This document shows positions 867 to 9,745 of a DNA stretch of 64,000 nt, piece by piece (the stretch's first letter is position 1; each line of letters opens with the position of its first letter). The DNA comes from Flavobacteriaceae bacterium NBU2973 (GTDB taxonomy: Bacteria; Bacteroidota; Bacteroidia; Flavobacteriales; Flavobacteriaceae): positions 310,001 through 374,000 of the forward strand of contig JAOEIQ010000003.1 in assembly GCA_026162565.1 (NCBI GenBank), written 5' to 3'. Made by a program: the position numbers and the translations under genes. The notes under the pieces are model-generated. The model made no database searches, was not told the origin of the DNA, and was given only the letters and a program-made list of their open reading frames with translations.

Positions 867-2606
867 TTATTTTTTAATGAATCGTTTAGTAAAGTTTAAA
901 CCATCGTATTTAATATTAGTAAAATATAAACCACTATTGAATTTAGATATATCAATTGAAGAATTTGATAATATCATATTGGATTTACTGAAAATAATTT
1001 GACCTAATGTATTGACAATTTCAACAGAAAAATCTTTATTTGAGTTAATTAAATTTTCTCCTGTAATAGTTAATTGATTATCTGCAATTGTTGGAAATAT
1101 TTTAAAATTAGTAAAACTATTAAAATCGTTATTTGACAATGTATTACCTTCAGTAATCGTTAATAATTGATTTGGAGAGACGTCGTAAATCACATCTTCT
1201 ATTCCACTTAACCATGTTACTTTTACATAATCAATTTCTGTAGCATCACCAACTCCAAAAAATTCTGCTCCAGAATTTTGACTGACGTAGCCTTCTCCAC
1301 AAAGTGTATATCGATATTGTTTTTTATTATCTGCCATAATCTCTATCCACGAACCAATTCCCATTTTATTACCAACAGTACCATTTAATTTAACCTTTAG
1401 CCAATTATTATTAACATTCTCATAGCACTCATTAATCCATAAATAGTTATCATCAGGTTCTATATTTAATACAGAAATATCAGGATAACCGTCATTATTA
1501 ACATCACCAATAGCATTAGAATAACTTACAGCTAAATCAACTTGAAAACCAGCATTAAGAGGTATAGAATAGGAACCACTACCATTATTCTCATAAAAGG
1601 CAGCAGATAAATAGGTTAAAAAATTATCAAATGAACCGCTGACGTATAAATCCTGATCTGTATCATTATCTGCATCTAAAAATACAGCTCCCCAAGCAAT
1701 ACTATTAAATTGTGTGCCATTTGTTGCAGCAATATCTGTAAAGGTTCCGTCTCCATTATTTCTTAAAAAAGAATTCCCGTCTAGTGTGTTCGTCACATAA
1801 ATATCTAACCAACCATCGTTATTATAATCGTCAATAGTTGTAGACATAGCATCTATTAATAAATCAGTTCCTGATTCAGAGCTCACATCTGTAAAAGTAC
1901 CATCTCCATTATTTTTATACAGTAAATTAGGAGTCACAATTCTATCATTAGCAATGTAAATATCTTGCCAACCATCGTTATTATAATCAAAAAAAGATGC
2001 ACAAAACGAACGTTGATGACCAGTATCTATTCCGGCAGCTGCTGTAACATCTGTAAAGGTTTTATTACCATTATTTCTATACAAATAATTTCTTGCAGAA
2101 TTATTTTGTAGATCTCTACTACTTAAAAATAAATCTAAATCACCATCTTTATCATAATCTCCCCAAGAAGATCCCCAAGTTTGAATGTCCGTGGTATCCA
2201 ATCCAGCACTAGTAGTAATATCTGTAAAGTTCATACTGCCATCATTTTCATACAATCTATTCATAGCATCATCATATGCAACAAAAAAATCTAAATCTCC
2301 ATCGTTATCGATATCTACCCAATTCATTTGTCTGGAATCCTTTTCGTAGTCAGTAAGGTTTAATGTAACAGATTGAAACGTCCCATTATTATTTTTAAAA
2401 AAATACAAGGGTTTATCTGTTTCCGAAGAAAATGTTAGATCGTCCCATCCATCTTGATCAAAATCAAAAAAAGATAGGCCTCCAATAAATATATTATCAC
2501 CATGCGATACATTAATATTTTGTGCGCTTGAGCTTTCAGTAAATTTTATTTGAGAAAAACCGAACAAAAAAGAACATGTAAATACTAATGATATGGCAAA
2601 TCGCAT
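867..2606 (-). CDS. Secreted FG-GAP/VCBS repeat protein with ASPIC/UnbV domain and T9SS tail
   Basis: A 579-residue exported protein. After a signal peptide ending near 'LFGFSQIKF' there are about seven FG-GAP/VCBS blades, each with an Asp-rich calcium loop such as 'DIDNDGDLD', 'DYNNDGWQD' or 'DVNNDGYPD'. These should form a beta-propeller. An ASPIC/UnbV-like segment follows ('GIGSWIEI', '[18 protein letters not shown]'), as in CRTAC1-type proteins. The last 85 or so residues resemble a type IX secretion sorting domain (start '[14 protein letters not shown]', end 'KRFIKK'), so secretion to the cell surface by T9SS is inferred. I chose the internal start MRFAIS: it gives a clean signal peptide and falls one base after the stop of the upstream aminotransferase, whereas a start at 2630 would overlap that gene. 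The ligand is unknown. Confidence 0.88.
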
Positions 2607-2607
2607 G

Positions 2608-3876
2608 TTATAGAGTTTTAGTAAATTCAATTAAATTTTTGATTCCGTTAAAGATATTAGGGCAATTTGTTTTAATTAAATTATCATCAACAGTTGTTTG
2701 ATTTTTATAGTGCCTCATTACATCTTCTCCATTAAAATCTACAAAAGCCAATCTAAAAAATAGGTCCTCTTCATTAAAATAAAAATCAGATCCCGGAAGC
2801 AACGCTACTTTATAATTTTTGAGTAGATAATTAGCAAGTTCACTACTTGTATCTATTCCTAAATTATTAATTTTTTCTTTAAAGTTATTAAATCCTATCA
2901 TCACATAAAAAGAACCTTGAGGAATTGTACAATCTATTTTATATTTTACTAATTCTGTATACACATAATTAGAAACTCCCTTTAAAATATCAGATCCTAA
3001 ATTCACATACTCTTTTAATTCAGACTTCATTTTAAAAGCCTCTACAGCTGCATATTGAACAGGTGAGGCTACAGCACTAAATGTTTCGCTAAACAGAGAT
3101 CTATAAGTAGTATGCAAATAAGAGAGTTCTTTTGGTAATTTTAAAAAGCCTAATCGGTAACCTCCAGCAGAAAATACTTTACTTAAACCTCCAAAAATAA
3201 ACGTTTTTTCAGGATAATAAGTAGCAATACTTGGTGAAGATTCCTCATTAAAATTAACTTGAGAATATATCTCATCAGATAATACTATCACATCATAAGC
3301 TCTACAAATATCAGCTAATGCTTTAAGCTCATCTTCAGAATATACAGCTCCAGTTGGATTATTTGGTGAATTAATGATTAGTGACTTTTGGATGTCTTTA
3401 TTATCCTCACAATACGTTTTTAATTCTTCTGGTTGAAGTTTAAAATTGTTTTTTAAATACGTATCTAAAACTACATAGTCACCACCTTTAGATTGTATTT
3501 GCGGACCATAACTTACCCAACTTCCTTTTGGTATCAGCACTACACCCTCTAACAATAAAATGGTTTGATATAAAAGCTCTTTACTTCCAGGACCAATTAA
3601 TATATCCTCTGGTAGAGAAGAAATATTTTGATAATTAGTAAGAAAAGAAGCAATGGTCTCACGTAATATTTCTAAACCAATAGTTGGTAAATATTTATTA
3701 TTTTCTGCATTCGCAATTAATTCATTAACTATACTGTCATGTATTTGAAATGGTGATTGTCCAAAACCAAAATGACAAATGTCTTCACCTTGACTTCTTA
3801 ACCTTTTAACTTCTTGATTAATCGCTAAAGTAGCTGAAGGTTTTAATGATTGAATATGTTGGTTTATTCGTATCAT
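2608..3876 (-). CDS. PLP-dependent aminotransferase, class I/II
   Basis: A 422-residue fold-type I aminotransferase, expected to act in the cytoplasm on an amino or keto acid. Visible landmarks are 'SPNNPTGAVYS' (cofactor-ring Asn near 172), Asp201 in 'VLSDEIYSQ' that binds the pyridine nitrogen, the Schiff-base Lys233 in 'FGGLSKVFSAGGYRLG', and Arg241 of the same stretch. The length suits aspartate/tyrosine-type enzymes, but the substrate cannot be read from sequence. It ends one base before the FG-GAP protein start, so the two are probably co-transcribed, an odd pairing with no obvious pathway link. A terminator of the preceding lipoprotein operon lies just upstream, so this gene should have its own promoter in the 38 bases before its ATG; no clear one is seen. 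Confidence 0.9.
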   Translation of the reverse strand: MIRINQHIQSLKPSATLAINQEVKRLRSQGEDICHFGFGQSPFQIHDSIVNELIANAENNKYLPTIGLEILRETIASFLTNYQNISSLPEDILIGPGSKELLYQTILLLEGVVLIPKGSWVSYGPQIQSKGGDYVVLDTYLKNNFKLQPEELKTYCEDNKDIQKSLIINSPNNPTGAVYSEDELKALADICRAYDVIVLSDEIYSQVNFNEESSPSIATYYPEKTFIFGGLSKVFSAGGYRLGFLKLPKELSYLHTTYRSLFSETFSAVASPVQYAAVEAFKMKSELKEYVNLGSDILKGVSNYVYTELVKYKIDCTIPQGSFYVMIGFNNFKEKINNLGIDTSSELANYLLKNYKVALLPGSDFYFNEEDLFFRLAFVDFNGEDVMRHYKNQTTVDDNLIKTNCPNIFNGIKNLIEFTKTL

Positions 3877-3914: not shown

Positions 3915-3946
3915 AAAAAAAATACCCAGAAAAATCTGGGTATTTT
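3915..3946 (-). terminator. Rho-independent terminator of the TonB receptor operon
   Basis: A perfect 12-base stem (aaaatacccaga / tctgggtatttt) with an AAAA loop is followed on the minus strand by a run of T. It lies about 23 bases after the stop of the last lipoprotein gene and before the aminotransferase start, so it separates the two transcription units. Confidence 0.85.
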
Positions 3947-3968: not shown

Positions 3969-4688
3969 CTATGGTACGCTAAACTCTACAGAATCAGAAC
4001 TTCCAAACTCTCCACCTTCTGCTAAAGTTTCAGAACATGCAGGCTTTGTAATTGTATAAGAACCTTCTCCCCAAGAACAACATATTCCATCTCCAAAACT
4101 ATCGAAGATAGTAAATGTATACGTTCCATCAGCTAATGTAAATCCTTCAGTAAACTCTGGAGCACCACTACCATCGCCTGAAGCAACTAATGCACCTCCA
4201 GAATCTCTAATTTCCCAAGTAGTTTCTCCAGGGAATGCATCAAAAACAATGTTTAATTCAATATCATTAGACTGACATATTTTTTCATAATCTACAGTTA
4301 CTTGCTCTGCAGAGTTATCAGCCAATTGTAAAGTTAAACTTCTTGGCACACCTGTTGGTATCGCATCAAAGTTAAAACCTACGCTAGTAGATCCTGTAGT
4401 TTCTCCAGCTTGGATAACTACATTTCCAGCAAAGCTATATTCAAAGTTAGGAGCATCTGAAGCATCACTAACTAATATACCAACAACTCTATCATTAAAT
4501 GATGTTGTTGAAGCTCCTACTACAAGGTTATAACTAACATTATCAGAATCCACCACTACAGATTGAGATGCAGATTCAATAGTTATCACTCCAGCTTCTT
4601 GAGTAGGAACAGGGTCTAATTCATTTTTATCACATGAAATTACAGCAACTGCAATTATACATGTAAAAATATACTTAAGTTTTTTCAT
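3969..4688 (-). CDS. Lipoprotein with a 'GDGICC' beta-sandwich module
   Basis: A 239-residue predicted lipoprotein of unknown function. It begins MKKLKYIFTCIIAVAVISC, so Cys19 is the likely lipid-anchored residue, and Asp and Lys follow. Residues about 30-135 look like an all-beta Calx-beta/Ig-like domain. Residues about 140-215 form a module with 'PGETTWEIRDSGG' and 'YTFTIFDSFGDGICCSWG', a pattern that recurs in secreted Bacteroidota and marine proteins and contains adjacent Cys-Cys. It is the last gene of the TonB-receptor operon, 11 bases after the other lipoprotein. It may be a surface-exposed partner that binds the receptor's substrate, but it is not a SusD family member by eye. Substrate unknown. 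Confidence 0.8.
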   Translation of the reverse strand: MKKLKYIFTCIIAVAVISCDKNELDPVPTQEAGVITIESASQSVVVDSDNVSYNLVVGASTTSFNDRVVGILVSDASDAPNFEYSFAGNVVIQAGETTGSTSVGFNFDAIPTGVPRSLTLQLADNSAEQVTVDYEKICQSNDIELNIVFDAFPGETTWEIRDSGGALVASGDGSGAPEFTEGFTLADGTYTFTIFDSFGDGICCSWGEGSYTITKPACSETLAEGGEFGSSDSVEFSVP

Positions 4689-4699
4689 AATCTATTTTT

Positions 4700-5530
4700 T
4701 TAATTTTGAGTAAATGTATACGTCTTAAATCCATTTCCTGGGTTTGCAGGATCTTGATCTGCAACATCCATTAACACGACATCTTGATCAATACCTCCTT
4801 CTAAAATTAAATCATCGCCTCCAAAAGTTTCTACAGAACCATCAGGATAAATGATATAAATAGTATAACCTGGAGCAGCTAATCCACCTCCTCCGATAGT
4901 AAAAATATCAAGTGCATAATATGCTCCATCAATACCAAGGAATCCTGGTAAATCTGGAGAATTTGGTAATCCAGGAGCAAAGAATGGTAATTCTAATACA
5001 AAGTTTGTTGTTAAAGCAGCATCAGTTACCCAAGCACCTTCTCCATCAAACACACCAATAGTAAAGAATGTAGTACCTCCAAAATTAGCATCTTCTAAAC
5101 TTAATACAAGAGTTAAAGCATCTTCTACTGGATTTGGTATGCTAATAAATGTTGCTGTGGTGTTAGTCCCTAAATTAACTTGTTGATCTAAATTAAGACC
5201 TCCTGTCAAAGTAATGGTATTTGTAGACCCAACAGTATTAGGAAAAGTCAGAGAAGCACTTGTAGAACCAGCAGGGATTGTTAGAGACTCTTCTGCACCA
5301 TTTAATGTATAATTTACTAATGTATTTTTACTCATAGCAGCCGATAAAATAACGTTAACAGTTATATTATCTCCAGCACTTGCAGGTACAAAGTTCTCAC
5401 CAGACTGATCTAGCGATACCACTTCAAAAATATCATCTGCTGGCAAAATAACGGGATCGTCATCTACAGCACATGAAAAAACGAACGCTAATGTAATTAG
5501 CAATACTAATATTGATTTATTTTTTTTCAT
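4700..5530 (-). CDS. Lipoprotein of unknown function in TonB-receptor operon
   Basis: A 276-residue predicted lipoprotein. The signal is MKKNKSILVLLITLAFVFSC with lipobox FSC and an acidic stretch 'AVDDDPVILPADD' after the lipidated Cys. The mature part is rich in Thr, Gly and Asn and looks all-beta. Residues about 35-125 resemble one Ig/Calx-beta-like repeat ('LTIPAGSTSASLTF'). The rest, with 'LPFFAPGLPNSPDLPGFLG', does not match any family I recognise. It lies 10 bases after the receptor gene and 11 before the second lipoprotein, so all three should be co-transcribed. A role as an accessory subunit to the receptor is inferred from position only. Confidence 0.78.
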   Translation of the reverse strand: MKKNKSILVLLITLAFVFSCAVDDDPVILPADDIFEVVSLDQSGENFVPASAGDNITVNVILSAAMSKNTLVNYTLNGAEESLTIPAGSTSASLTFPNTVGSTNTITLTGGLNLDQQVNLGTNTTATFISIPNPVEDALTLVLSLEDANFGGTTFFTIGVFDGEGAWVTDAALTTNFVLELPFFAPGLPNSPDLPGFLGIDGAYYALDIFTIGGGGLAAPGYTIYIIYPDGSVETFGGDDLILEGGIDQDVVLMDVADQDPANPGNGFKTYTFTQN

Positions 5531-5540
5531 AGTCTTTTAA

Positions 5541-8420
5541 TTAAAGTTTAAAGTTAAGTCTCGCAAATAACTGTCTACCGTTTTGTCCAAACTGTGATGT
5601 CACACGAGGGTAAATAAAGTTATTACCACTTGTTAAATCATCTGGAGCGTCATCTGGGAACTTATCAAATAAGTTATTAGCTCCAACAGTTAAAGTTAAT
5701 CTTTCGTTTACTTTATATCCAAAAGATAAATCTGTAACTATTTTAGCACTAAATTCAGGATGAGAATCTCTAACTCCATCACCTGTTGTGTCAGTTAAAT
5801 CTGGGTTAAATACCGATCCAAAATACGCATTTCTAACAAAAATTCTCCATTTACCACCTTCAATCATGTTAGTTAAATTAGCTTTTACTCTAGGTTGCGC
5901 AAACTCTAAAAAGTATCTTTCACGCTCACCGAAATACGTGTCAATTTGTGGTGCTAATTGTTGAGATGCATGAATATCATCTACTTGCATAGTTCTAGAA
6001 ACTGTACCAGCTAAACTCGTTGTCATTTTAAAAGTATCACTTAAGTTACCTCTATGGGTAATCACTACATCAATACCTTTAGTTTCTGTATCTATTGCAT
6101 TTGCAAAGAACCTAGCTCTAGTAGCATTAGCAGCATCAAATAAAGTTTGTAATTCTCCTGGTGCATCAGGTCTAAAGAAATTACCTGTTAAGGTAGTTCT
6201 GTCTTCTATAGCTGTAAAGAAAGCATCAACTGTAACTGTAAGATTAGCAGATGGTATTTTAGCTGCTAAACCTACACTTGCACTAAACGACTCTTCCTCT
6301 TTTAATTCAGGAATTCCTAATAATTTAGCAATACGACTATCATTTGAGAAAGTTCCAACCTCATTTGGAACACCGTTAACAAAATTAGTACTGGTTGCAT
6401 TAAAATGTAACTGATGTAAAGAAGGTGCTCTAAAACCTGTACTAGCAGCTGCTCTTAAATTAAAATTGTCATTTACTTTAAATAAAGAAGAAACCTTCCA
6501 GTTGAGTGTTGATCCAAAATCACTGTAGTTTTCAAAACGTAAAGCTGTTCCTATTAAAATTCTATCAGTTACATCTGCTTCAATGTCAGCATATACAGCA
6601 TAACTATTTCTGCGAGCATCTCTTTCATTTTCCGGTCTAAATCCTGGGAATACTTGTACACCACCTGGACGTTGTCTTCCAAAAAAGTCAGTAACTGCTA
6701 AAGAGGCATCACCATTCCAAATATCGCCATTTATATCATAGGTTGCCCAAGACGCCTCGCTACCTTGTAATAATTCATAATTCTCTAGTCTATATTCTGC
6801 TCCAAATGCCACATTTAAACCACTCCAAACCGAATCGTAAAATCTAGATACATCTAAATTAGTTGTATTTTGTGAAAAAGCAAATCCTCCAGCATAAGTC
6901 TCAAGAGGAGTAGATGTACCTAAAGTCGCATTACTAGAATTAGCTATAGTAAAATCAAATGAGTTTCTACCCCAAGTATTACTAAAATCAATATCCCAGT
7001 CACCTTGCTTTCCTTTAATTCCAACTGCTAATGATTTATCGTTAACATCTGTTTGTATTTCAGGTAAAAAGCCATTGATGTAGACAGCTGTATTAGCTCT
7101 AGATTGCGCTGGTCTTCTATAAAAACCAGCTGCTTCACCATTTCTATAACTAATACCTCCAAACGAATAAATACTGAAATCGTCTGATAATGGAATTTCC
7201 ATATTAGCAAAGAATTTTCCGCTTCTTAATTTAGATTGTCCAACACGCATACTATAATCTCTTCGATCTTGACCTCTTAAAGCCAATTCTTGATCTGTAG
7301 TATCAAAGTCTAATAATCCACGAAGATCATCAATTGAGCTAGCTGCATCTATATCTGATTGTAATGCAGCACTAAAGTGAGGAACACCATCTGCTAACAA
7401 TTGTAACTCTGCTAAAGAATAGTTGTTTAAATCTGTATCAAAGCCAGCTAACATAGCTTGCCATTCTAATGAATTGGATCCATCAAATATCTGACCAGTA
7501 GCACCATCTCGCCCAGCTCTACTTCCAGGATTTCTAGTTAACACAGATCCTGTAAAGTTTACAAAACCACCTTTGTCTCCTAAAGGAATTCCATAGTTTG
7601 CATCAATTTGGATATTTTCACCATCAACGCCACCATCTTGATTATTTGCTTGACTTGTAAAATTAGCACCAGAGTTTACTTGCAATTCTAAACCTTCACT
7701 TTCTTTCATTACAATATTAATTACACCAGCAATGGCATCTGAACCATATTGTGCTGCTGCACCATCTCTTAATACTTCTATTCTCTTAATAGCAAATGCA
7801 GGAATTGCATTAAGATCTGTACCAACACTACCACGACCGACAGTACTGTTAACGTTTACTAAAGAAGAAGTATGCCTTCTTTTTCCATTAACTAATACTA
7901 AAACCTGATCTGGCCCCAAGCCTCTTAAAGAAGCTGGGTCTATGTGGTCAGTTCCATCAGAAACCGTTTGTGTTGTTGATGTAAACGAAGGTGCCACATA
8001 GTTTAAGATGTCATTTACAGACGTCTGCGGTCCAGCAGATGTCAATTCTGTAACGTCAATTACATCTATTGGAACAGGTGAATTAATTGCTGTTCTGTTT
8101 TTACTTCTTGTACCTACTAAAACAATTTCATCTAGTGCCACACCAGATTTCATTGTTACATCTACGGTACTTCCACTTACAACAACTTCTTGAGAGTCGA
8201 AACCAACATAAGAGAATACTAATGTATCTCCTTGATTGGCATCAATAGAATAGTTTCCATCAAAATCGGAAGTTGTTCCAGTTGTAGTTCCTTTTACAAC
8301 AATGGACACTCCTGGTAAAGGTTGTGAGGAGTCATCTAAAATTGTACCAGAAACTTGTGCATGTAAAAAAGTTGACAATCCAAAAAAGATAGCCAACATA
8401 ATTGTGTACTTTTTAATCAT
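5541..8420 (-). CDS. TonB-dependent outer-membrane receptor
   Basis: A 959-residue TonB-dependent transporter. Residues about 1-22 are a signal peptide (MIKKYTIMLAIFFGLS..HAQ). Next is a carboxypeptidase-D regulatory-like domain ('LPGVSIVVKGTTTGTTSDFD'), then the plug ('LRGLGPDQVLVLVNGKRRH', 'IEVLRDGAAAQYGSDAIAGV'), then the 22-strand barrel to the C-terminus ending in an aromatic-rich strand (RLNFKL). The plug is of the 'NGKRRH' type and not the SusC type, and no SusD partner follows, so a starch-like polysaccharide system is not indicated. It imports a small molecule with energy from TonB; the substrate is unknown. The start at 8420 was chosen over 8447 because it begins the signal peptide and has a -7 promoter box 24 bases upstream. 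First gene of a three-gene operon. Confidence 0.93.
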   Translation of the reverse strand: MIKKYTIMLAIFFGLSTFLHAQVSGTILDDSSQPLPGVSIVVKGTTTGTTSDFDGNYSIDANQGDTLVFSYVGFDSQEVVVSGSTVDVTMKSGVALDEIVLVGTRSKNRTAINSPVPIDVIDVTELTSAGPQTSVNDILNYVAPSFTSTTQTVSDGTDHIDPASLRGLGPDQVLVLVNGKRRHTSSLVNVNSTVGRGSVGTDLNAIPAFAIKRIEVLRDGAAAQYGSDAIAGVINIVMKESEGLELQVNSGANFTSQANNQDGGVDGENIQIDANYGIPLGDKGGFVNFTGSVLTRNPGSRAGRDGATGQIFDGSNSLEWQAMLAGFDTDLNNYSLAELQLLADGVPHFSAALQSDIDAASSIDDLRGLLDFDTTDQELALRGQDRRDYSMRVGQSKLRSGKFFANMEIPLSDDFSIYSFGGISYRNGEAAGFYRRPAQSRANTAVYINGFLPEIQTDVNDKSLAVGIKGKQGDWDIDFSNTWGRNSFDFTIANSSNATLGTSTPLETYAGGFAFSQNTTNLDVSRFYDSVWSGLNVAFGAEYRLENYELLQGSEASWATYDINGDIWNGDASLAVTDFFGRQRPGGVQVFPGFRPENERDARRNSYAVYADIEADVTDRILIGTALRFENYSDFGSTLNWKVSSLFKVNDNFNLRAAASTGFRAPSLHQLHFNATSTNFVNGVPNEVGTFSNDSRIAKLLGIPELKEEESFSASVGLAAKIPSANLTVTVDAFFTAIEDRTTLTGNFFRPDAPGELQTLFDAANATRARFFANAIDTETKGIDVVITHRGNLSDTFKMTTSLAGTVSRTMQVDDIHASQQLAPQIDTYFGERERYFLEFAQPRVKANLTNMIEGGKWRIFVRNAYFGSVFNPDLTDTTGDGVRDSHPEFSAKIVTDLSFGYKVNERLTLTVGANNLFDKFPDDAPDDLTSGNNFIYPRVTSQFGQNGRQLFARLNFKL

Positions 8421-8444: not shown

Positions 8445-8452
8445 CAAATGTA
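8445..8452 (-). promoter_or_regulatory. Predicted -7 promoter box of the TonB-receptor operon
   Basis: The minus strand reads TACATTTG, matching TAnnTTTG, 24 bases before the chosen receptor start. It falls in the 86-base divergent gap shared with pepT. It also supports the 8420 start, because it would overlap the coding start of the longer form. No obvious -33 TTG is seen. Confidence 0.45.
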
Positions 8453-8506: not shown

Positions 8507-9745
8507 ATGGATAAAAATAAAATCATGAATCGGTTTATAAGTTATGTCACTATAGATACTGAATCAGACCCAAATTCTGATACAACTCCAAGCTCAAAAA
8601 AACAATGGGATTTAGCTAACAAACTAGCTGAAGAATTAAAAACTATTGGCTTAACAGACGTGACTATAGATGGAAATGCCTACATCATGGCTACTTTACC
8701 TAGTAATGTTGAGCATGAGGTTCCAACCATTGGCTTTATATCACATTTTGATACGTCACCAGATTTTACTGGAGCGAATGTGAAACCTCAAATCATAGAG
8801 AACTATGATGGTTCTGACATCATTCTAAATGCTGAAGAAACTATTGTTTTATCCCCTAGTTATTTTGAAGATCTATTGCTTTACAAAGGACAAACATTAA
8901 TTACAACTGATGGTACAACACTACTTGGTGCTGATGATAAAGCTGGTATTTGTGAGATAGTTTCTGCTATGGAATATTTAATTAATAATCCACATATTAA
9001 ACATGGCACTATTAAAGTAGGTTTTACTCCTGATGAAGAAATTGGTCGAGGTGCTCATAAATTTGATGTAACAAAGTTTGGAGCTGATTGGGCTTATACT
9101 ATGGATGGCAGCCAAATAGGAGAACTTGAATACGAAAACTTTAATGCTGCAGGAGCCACTGTAAATATAAAAGGTAAAATTGTACATCCTGGCTATGCAA
9201 AAGGAAAAATGGTAAACTCCATGTATATTGCTACAGAGTTCATCAATTCACTTCCTAGACTAGAAACACCTGAACATACAGAAGGATATGAAGGTTTTTT
9301 CCATTTATATTCCGTTACTGGTTTAGTTGAAGGAACAAAACTTAAATACATTATTAGAGATCACGACAAAGAAAAGTTTGAAGCTAGAAAAGCGCTTTTC
9401 AAAAAAGTAGCTGATGATATCAACTCTAATTATGGTAAACAAATAATAGAGGTTGACTTAAAAGACCAATATTATAATATGAAAGAAAAAGTAGTGCCTG
9501 TAATGCATATTGTTGATATCGCAGAAGAAGCCATGAAAGCTTTAGGTATTAAACCGTTGATTAAACCAATTAGAGGAGGAACTGATGGTTCTCAATTAAG
9601 TTTTATGGGATTACCTTGCCCAAATATTTTTGCTGGTGGACATAATTTTCATGGTCGCTATGAGTATGTTCCTGTTGAAAGTATGATGAAAGCCACTGAA
9701 GTAATATGTAAAATAGCTGAACTTACTGCTGAAAAATATAAGTAG
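8507..9745 (+). CDS. pepT: Peptidase T (tripeptide aminopeptidase)
   Basis: A 412-residue M20B zinc aminopeptidase that removes N-terminal residues from tripeptides in the cytoplasm. The di-zinc ligands are all visible: His80 and Asp82 in '[11 protein letters not shown]', Asp in '[10 protein letters not shown]' (about 143), the catalytic Glu pair in '[12 protein letters not shown]' (177-178), Asp200 in 'YTMDGSQIG', and the late His in '[15 protein letters not shown]'. '[14 protein letters not shown]' before it is characteristic of PepT. Length is normal for the family. It is transcribed away from the TonB-receptor operon and seems to be a single-gene unit. Confidence 0.95.

Follow-up and report, generated by a model that had tools for sequence, protein, structure and literature searches.

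A window of 64,000 nucleotides from Flavobacteriaceae bacterium NBU2973 (GenBank assembly GCA_026162565.1, contig JAOEIQ010000003.1, positions 310,001 to 374,000 of the forward strand) contains three adjacent minus-strand genes that encode, in this order, a TonB-dependent receptor and two lipoproteins, here termed LP1 and LP2 (Table 1). The trio is tentatively read as a TonB-linked uptake complex, in which LP1 would be a partner of non-SusD type and LP2 a SusE-like binding lipoprotein, with peptides or glycopeptides as the most likely cargo. Support for this reading comes from the tight gaps between the genes and the hairpin at their end, from the shared inheritance of LP1 and a part of the receptor family, from the presence of LP2 relatives in SusC-SusD loci, from the frequent occurrence of the C-terminal module of LP2 (the GDGICC module) on secreted peptidases, and from a predicted likeness of this module to carbohydrate-binding module (CBM) family 60.

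LP1 is probably inherited with part of a receptor family

When the open reading frames (ORFs) of the window and their translations were examined, the coordinates, the gene order and the motifs NGKRRH, PGETTWEIRD and FDSFGDGICCSWG named in a sequence-only reading of this DNA were all confirmed. The three genes, separated by 10 and 11 bases, are presumably transcribed as one operon. Terminator-like sites are not enriched in the scanned stretch, where 3 were found as compared with 2.7 in shuffled sequences. The receptor gene was taken to begin with the ATG at 8420; the longer TTG start at 8447 also offered by the ORF listing is unlikely, because the signal peptide begins at the ATG. Against the SusC model TIGR04056, the receptor scored 121.5 bits, below the cut-off of 368.25, such that it is not a SusC. 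Likewise, no SusD family match (PF07980 or PF14322) was found in LP1 or LP2 with Pfam at E ≤ 1, bearing out the earlier view that neither lipoprotein is SusD-like.

Receptor orthologs were identified at E ≤ 1e-250 in 83 of 397 genomes of the family, that of the window included (about a fifth), those from other genomes being 49 to 60 percent identical to the window receptor. The set of 85 receptor loci considered below comprises all 84 places found at this threshold (window included) and one weaker match, L116 (E 2e-224); outside it stand L117-L121 (weaker or split matches), L128 (at a contig edge) and other matches near E 1e-100. In 12 of the 85 orthologs, again including the window, the receptor gene is immediately followed by a gene of LP1 type, as it is at the contig-edge locus L128 in addition. 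L117 looks like a true receptor ortholog lacking LP1 and, if counted, would make the figure 12/86.

As a single query, LP1 matched 8 of the 397 genomes, its own included, and mostly weakly. The best foreign matches, in genomes G309 (E 3e-9) and G185 (E 7e-6), each come immediately after a receptor of this type. Lipoproteins of similar length found behind other receptor orthologs could be aligned with LP1 (alignment A3, 12 sequences), members first having been chosen by eye for their place behind the receptor and homology having been tested separately afterwards. Comparison of the mature parts of the four LP1-type sequences of the window's kind with those of the other eight gave an E-value of 7e-12, the best of 30 shuffles reaching 0.12, or of 6e-7 once the intermediate L188 was removed. 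Moreover, a profile built from the four window-kind sequences alone retrieved members of the other eight.

When mapped onto a quickly built tree of the receptor set, the LP1 trait required 3 changes, being present in nine rows of an 11-row clade, in the window and in the L127-L188 pair, and absent from a block of 60 receptors and from 11 basal rows. Given so few changes, LP1 is best read as an old, fast-changing partner that was passed down together with some of these receptors. At L226, the order receptor, LP1, aminotransferase and FG-GAP protein is that of the window minus LP2. The notion that the aminotransferase co-evolved with LP1 was dropped, with only 3 independent pairs available on the receptor tree.

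LP1 and LP2 are predicted to share an N-terminal domain of Ig-like type, given that profiles of the LP1-type and LP2-type mature proteins matched at E 7e-8 and those of the N-domains at 3e-7, with 0.089 as the best of 30 shuffles. The possibility that the C-domain of LP1 is a copy of the GDGICC module was also considered and is unproven (E 0.004 against LP2 C-domains and 0.01 against alignment A4 of the module). Separately, a second lipoprotein of 290-295 residues was observed behind LP1 at L127:8378-9247 and L188:480-1364, in the slot filled by LP2 in the window. Both show a weak relationship to LP1 (E 1e-7 and 5e-6, respectively) and had no Pfam match.

The solved relatives of the receptor are weak by sequence, FepA coming first (E 3e-17) and 9gbc, the XusA entry (PMC13142918), being among them (E 7e-10). 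Such relatives bear on a different and somewhat unlikely explanation, namely that a metal chelate or a cofactor is what the receptor imports, with LP1 as a capture protein in the manner of XusB or BtuG and LP2 as a chance insertion. FepA, PirA, CirA and BtuB are the best solved sequence matches of the receptor, siderophore models of NCBIfam match it as well, FecR-like genes, read by eye, lie beside several receptor orthologs, and the TonB-dependent transporters (TBDTs) known to have non-SusD lids carry siderophores and B12 (PMC13142918; PMC10404256). The siderophore matches, however, are found mainly in the plug and fall far below curated cut-offs, no iron or cofactor gene was seen among the neighbors scanned with Pfam (the aminotransferase, the FG-GAP protein and the M20 peptidase) and in single orthologs a gamma-glutamyltranspeptidase gene (L089) or an M28 peptidase gene (L101) lies upstream of the receptor.

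LP2 belongs to a lipoprotein family of SusC-SusD loci

Among 149 genomes of the family, 60 hold a match to LP2, its own included (E ≤ 1e-3; best foreign match, E 7e-30); several places matching the N-domain only, for example in G063 and G045, were set aside thereafter. Of 19 regions fetched around such matches, L049 (no LP2 match at 1e-4) and L047 (a type IX protein) were dropped. In all of the 17 regions that were kept, drawn from 16 other genomes, SusC and SusD genes lie directly or one gene upstream of the LP2 relative. As controls, the adjacent receptors were compared with TIGR04056, which matched in 17/17 cases at E ≤ 1e-3 (731.8 bits in one example), and the adjacent SusD genes with PF07980 and PF14322, both of which matched in 17/17 cases. 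LP2 is homologous over its full length to 16 of these lipoproteins behind SusC-SusD, with 25-34% identity (alignment A2, from which L048 was left out). Secreted peptidases are encoded beside several such loci, namely subtilases (S8) in L035, L036 and L039 and a thermolysin-type peptidase (M4) in L033, each of the four bearing a type IX tail according to Pfam scans of selected neighboring genes. It was further observed that many of the SusC-SusD-LP2 loci in L036-L044 adjoin the same gene, which we take to be rlmB, at a chromosomal place that recurs across genera.

In the window, LP2 does not occupy the usual position of its family, lying instead behind LP1 and a receptor that is not a SusC. As LP2 follows the receptor in one of the 85 orthologs, that of the window itself, as PF07980 (SusD_RagB) finds no match in the window genome, and as the module profile matches that genome once, at LP2, the three genes might be neighbors by accident, co-transcribed and without joint function, with LP2 as the relic of a lost SusC-SusD locus. 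Such an accident is distinctly improbable, given the tight spacing and intact frames of the genes, the co-inheritance of LP1, which argues against an accident in its case, the N-domain type predicted to be common to LP1 and LP2, and the presence in G309 and G311 too of a second lipoprotein, weakly related to LP1, behind LP1. Within an uptake complex, LP2 was probably recruited to the receptor locus or kept there after the loss of its own SusC-SusD pair, since its family normally serves SusC-SusD systems. Accordingly, the conservation with the receptor at stake in the sequence-only reading holds for LP1 in part of the receptor family (12/85) and fails for LP2, found in the window only. In the same manner, the proposal of an uptake system with its own binding module survives as an uptake operon with non-SusD lipoproteins, LP2 not being the receptor's own.

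The GDGICC module is frequent on secreted peptidases

From the family, 63 other module proteins were collected. A type IX tail is present in 61 of them, and an M43 peptidase domain in 26. Further domains found on module carriers are M12-like, M4, trypsin and S8, the Pfam families of alignment A1 being those of the first 25 of its 43 members. The module usually sits just before the type IX tail, the median distance from its end to the C-terminus being 93 residues (deeper than 280 residues in 9/63). The motif HExxH occurs in 80/136 module-bearing and 10/44 module-free type IX proteins (p 5e-5). Of these, the module-free proteins are a small control set drawn from neighbors already collected; this p value, like that given below for the metzincin motif, is too good, as relatives were counted singly. 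In a scan of GTDB genomes, at least 551 module relatives were detected, the best 80 all being from Bacteroidota by their record titles, in a ranking that favors close relatives. Among viral contigs searched, no relative was confirmed. An exact DNA pattern for the module gave no match in the genome, in a search that tells nothing because the codons were guessed.

The module is no chance string, as the matches to LP2 in 60/149 genomes show; the CC pair in its name is not its conserved core, with several relatives lacking it. Invariant, or nearly so, in alignments A2 and A4 are positions occupied by D, E, W, Y, D, D and G, such that the module head is defined by invariant Asp, Glu, Trp and Gly residues. 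No Pfam model scored above its cut-off in LP2, FlgD_ig being the sole one listed (13.4 bits as compared with 27), nor did any NCBIfam model, and no NCBIfam match covered the module in two other carriers. PF16841 (CBM60) was not matched by LP2 at E ≤ 1 or, by Pfam, in any of 247 genomes from the phylum. When the PDB was searched with the LP2 sequence, the module profile and the LP1 profile, matches were obtained only at E 0.25 or worse, the single match of LP1 (E 0.28) being no related one. The strings GDGICC and DGICC were absent from the literature text searched, a result limited to those strings, and the available parts of a survey of marine TBDTs (PMC3400609) and of a cytophagalysin study (PMC11674741) offered neither a substrate nor a match to the module.

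Structural models were next compared with solved structures. In the LP2 model (17 sequences; predicted local distance difference test score (pLDDT) 86), the N-domain resembled 4dqa (VIA-align Z 11.5; root-mean-square deviation (rmsd) 2.7; 105 residues aligned), as in lipoproteins of polysaccharide utilization loci (PULs), followed by the DUF1735 entry 3sot (Z 11.0) and the Calx-beta entry 3fq4 (Z 10.4). The module itself was modeled from 56 sequences (pLDDT 95) as an eight-strand beta-sandwich, for which the top VIA-align match was the vCBM60 entry 2xfd (Z 8.1; rmsd 2.7; 86 of 102 residues aligned) and then 2xhh (Z 7.1). By analogy, the invariant acidic module residues D150, E155, D196 and D200 (LP2 numbering) may form a calcium site.

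Such a likeness invites the explanation that the module binds carbohydrate, as a CBM, and that the system imports an oligosaccharide, in agreement with CBM60 being the top VIA-align match and with DUF1735-like stalks being typical of PUL lipoproteins (PMC11216935). This explanation is quite unlikely, in that no glycoside hydrolase was found in Pfam scans of adjacent genes, many carriers of the module are peptidases (the M43 domain alone in 26/63), the receptor is not a SusC and the window genome is devoid of PF07980 matches.

Substrate and weighing of the uptake reading

As regards the unknown marine substrate proposed in the sequence-only reading, the genomic context hints at peptides, and not at a marine compound in particular. 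A relative of the M20 peptidase, the enzyme of the window presumably being peptidase T, is encoded divergently next to the receptor in 25/85 orthologs, and an aminotransferase relative within three genes downstream in 10/85, the window being included in both counts. As such, the receptor neighborhoods tilt towards peptides, and the substrate is perhaps a peptide or a glycopeptide; synteny alone can explain much of this, as judged by cases in which aspS is the neighbor. Among the papers listed by literature searches, none was seen to pair SusC-SusD systems with peptidases, or the receptor with peptidase T or the uptake of peptides.

Several observations weigh against the uptake reading. LP1-type genes are missing next door to 73/85 receptor orthologs, such that the receptor can work without LP1, and LP2 accompanies the receptor in the window only. 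The window receptor sits on a long branch of the quick receptor tree, and its best solved sequence matches, mainly through the plug, are siderophore receptors. The M20 peptidase may reflect mere synteny, as aspS is found in the same place in 21/85 orthologs. The C-domains of the LP1 and LP2 types are not significantly alike. For the stricter metzincin motif, module-bearing proteins show no enrichment (25/136 as compared with 4/44; p 0.17). Finally, the likeness of the module to CBM60 is borderline, as a Z near 8 can reflect a merely common arrangement, and Foldseek ranked other folds first (MmpS5, E 6e-5) and 2xfd tenth.

If the trio is nonetheless considered as an uptake complex, the receptor would act as the energized gate and LP1, with its Ig-like stalk and second domain, as its surface partner, be it a lid or a capture protein. 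LP2 would be an accessory lipoprotein of SusE type, whose stalk would hold the beta-sandwich head away from the membrane near the gate, where the conserved acidic site of the head, maybe calcium-binding, would catch substrate. Secreted peptidases would release the substrate outside, the LP2 head would catch it and hand it to LP1 atop the receptor, and TonB would pull it in through the receptor. The M20 peptidase would then split imported short peptides, the amino acids of which would be transaminated. A surface location of LP1 and LP2, their assembly into a complex and metal binding are all presumed here. Both open with lipoprotein-like signal peptides, followed by CAVDDD in LP1 and CDKNELD in LP2, each acid-rich after the Cys, yet not exact copies of the published lipoprotein export signals QKDDE of C. 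canimorsus and SDDFE of F. johnsoniae (PMC5080379).

Of greater interest than the trio is the module, for which no curated model exists and which is common to many secreted peptidases and uptake-locus lipoproteins in Bacteroidota. In a bolder proposal, which is rather unlikely, GDGICC would be an undescribed calcium-dependent module that directs secreted peptidases and importer-side lipoproteins of Bacteroidota towards one shared glycoprotein or matrix. In this proposal, LP1 would found a new class of non-SusD partners for a widespread NGKRRH receptor importing the peptides or glycopeptides so released. Were the module to bind what the peptidases cut, a single binding assay would indicate what many systems take up. 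LP1, as a non-SusD protein that travelled with part of one receptor family, is an obvious partner for structural work on an orphan receptor family present in 83/397 of the sampled family genomes.

Gene layout and neighboring genes

The features of the locus are listed in Table 1.

Table 1. Features of the receptor-lipoprotein locus and adjacent genes (window coordinates).
Feature	Position	Strand	Remarks
TonB-dependent receptor	5541..8420	-	959 aa; CarbopepD_reg_2, Plug and barrel; not SusC (Pfam; TIGR04056)
NGKRRH plug motif	7872..7889	-	Read in sequence
LP1 lipoprotein	4700..5530	-	276 aa; N-domain predicted homologous to that of LP2
LP2 lipoprotein	3969..4688	-	239 aa; elsewhere a SusE-position family
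LP2 stalk, residues about 30-137	4278..4601	-	Calx-beta/DUF1735-like domain (VIA-align)
GDGICC module, LP2 residues 138-239	3972..4277	-	Alignment A4, model, fold search
Terminator-like hairpin and T run, behind LP2	3919..3946	-	12-pair hairpin
Aminotransferase class I/II	2608..3876	-	Pfam
FG-GAP/UnbV protein, type IX tail	867..2630	-	Pfam; adjoins the aminotransferase gene or overlaps with it, according to the start taken
M20-family peptidase	8507..9745	+	Pfam; divergent neighbor in front of the receptor

In 14/85 orthologs (L087, L091, L093, L094, L097, L104 and others), the gene that directly follows the receptor encodes a secreted-looking protein of about 145 residues, often preceding a gene read as that of dihydroorotate dehydrogenase; the one such protein tested, that of L093, had no Pfam match. 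In L112, L116 and L234, the same place is taken by a gene for a protein of 476 residues, which in L112, the only one scanned, is a DASS-type symporter by Pfam, a neighbor that could hint at an anionic substrate. Elsewhere in the window, a long run of minus-strand genes at 34544-63138 was seen to be a surface polysaccharide cluster, as based on Pfam scans of seven genes, six of which encode a sugar transferase, a protein of O-antigen ligase type, two glycosyltransferases, a DegT aminotransferase and a Wzt-type ABC transporter.

Comparison with known systems

The trio resembles SusC-SusD systems with lipoproteins in the SusE position, RagAB-like peptide systems included, in combining a TonB receptor with small lipoproteins. 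Indeed, relatives of LP2 hold the SusE position in all 17 loci, and LP2 has a predicted DUF1735-like stalk, as do proteins in the SusE/F position, where DUF1735 was proposed to be a membrane-bound spacer (PMC11216935). The window differs from such systems in its receptor, which scored below the SusC cut-off, in lipoproteins that are not SusD, and in a genome where no PF07980 match was detected. In terms of fold, the LP2 N-domain is like Calx-beta and DUF1735 domains (Z 10-11.5), from which it differs in having no Pfam match by sequence.

With CBM60 and CBM36, the LP2 module would share a beta-sandwich extending over its whole length and a conserved set of Asp, Glu and Trp residues. The entry 2xhh concerns two calcium-dependent CBM families, and CBM36 binds two calcium ions, with a sugar pocket around one of them (PMC9165906). 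The module differs in being only 9-12% identical to CBM60/CBM36 entries, in lacking a PF16841 match and in that many of its carriers are peptidases.

XusA-XusB and BtuB-BtuG likewise join a TonB receptor to a non-SusD surface lipoprotein. XusB, however, is a seven-bladed propeller (PMC13142918), whereas LP1, a protein of 276 residues, has an Ig-like N-domain as predicted by profile. TonB receptors with lipoprotein partners are known; what is new is the combination of a receptor that is not a SusC, an inherited partner that is not a SusD and a lipoprotein of a SusE family found away from SusC-SusD.

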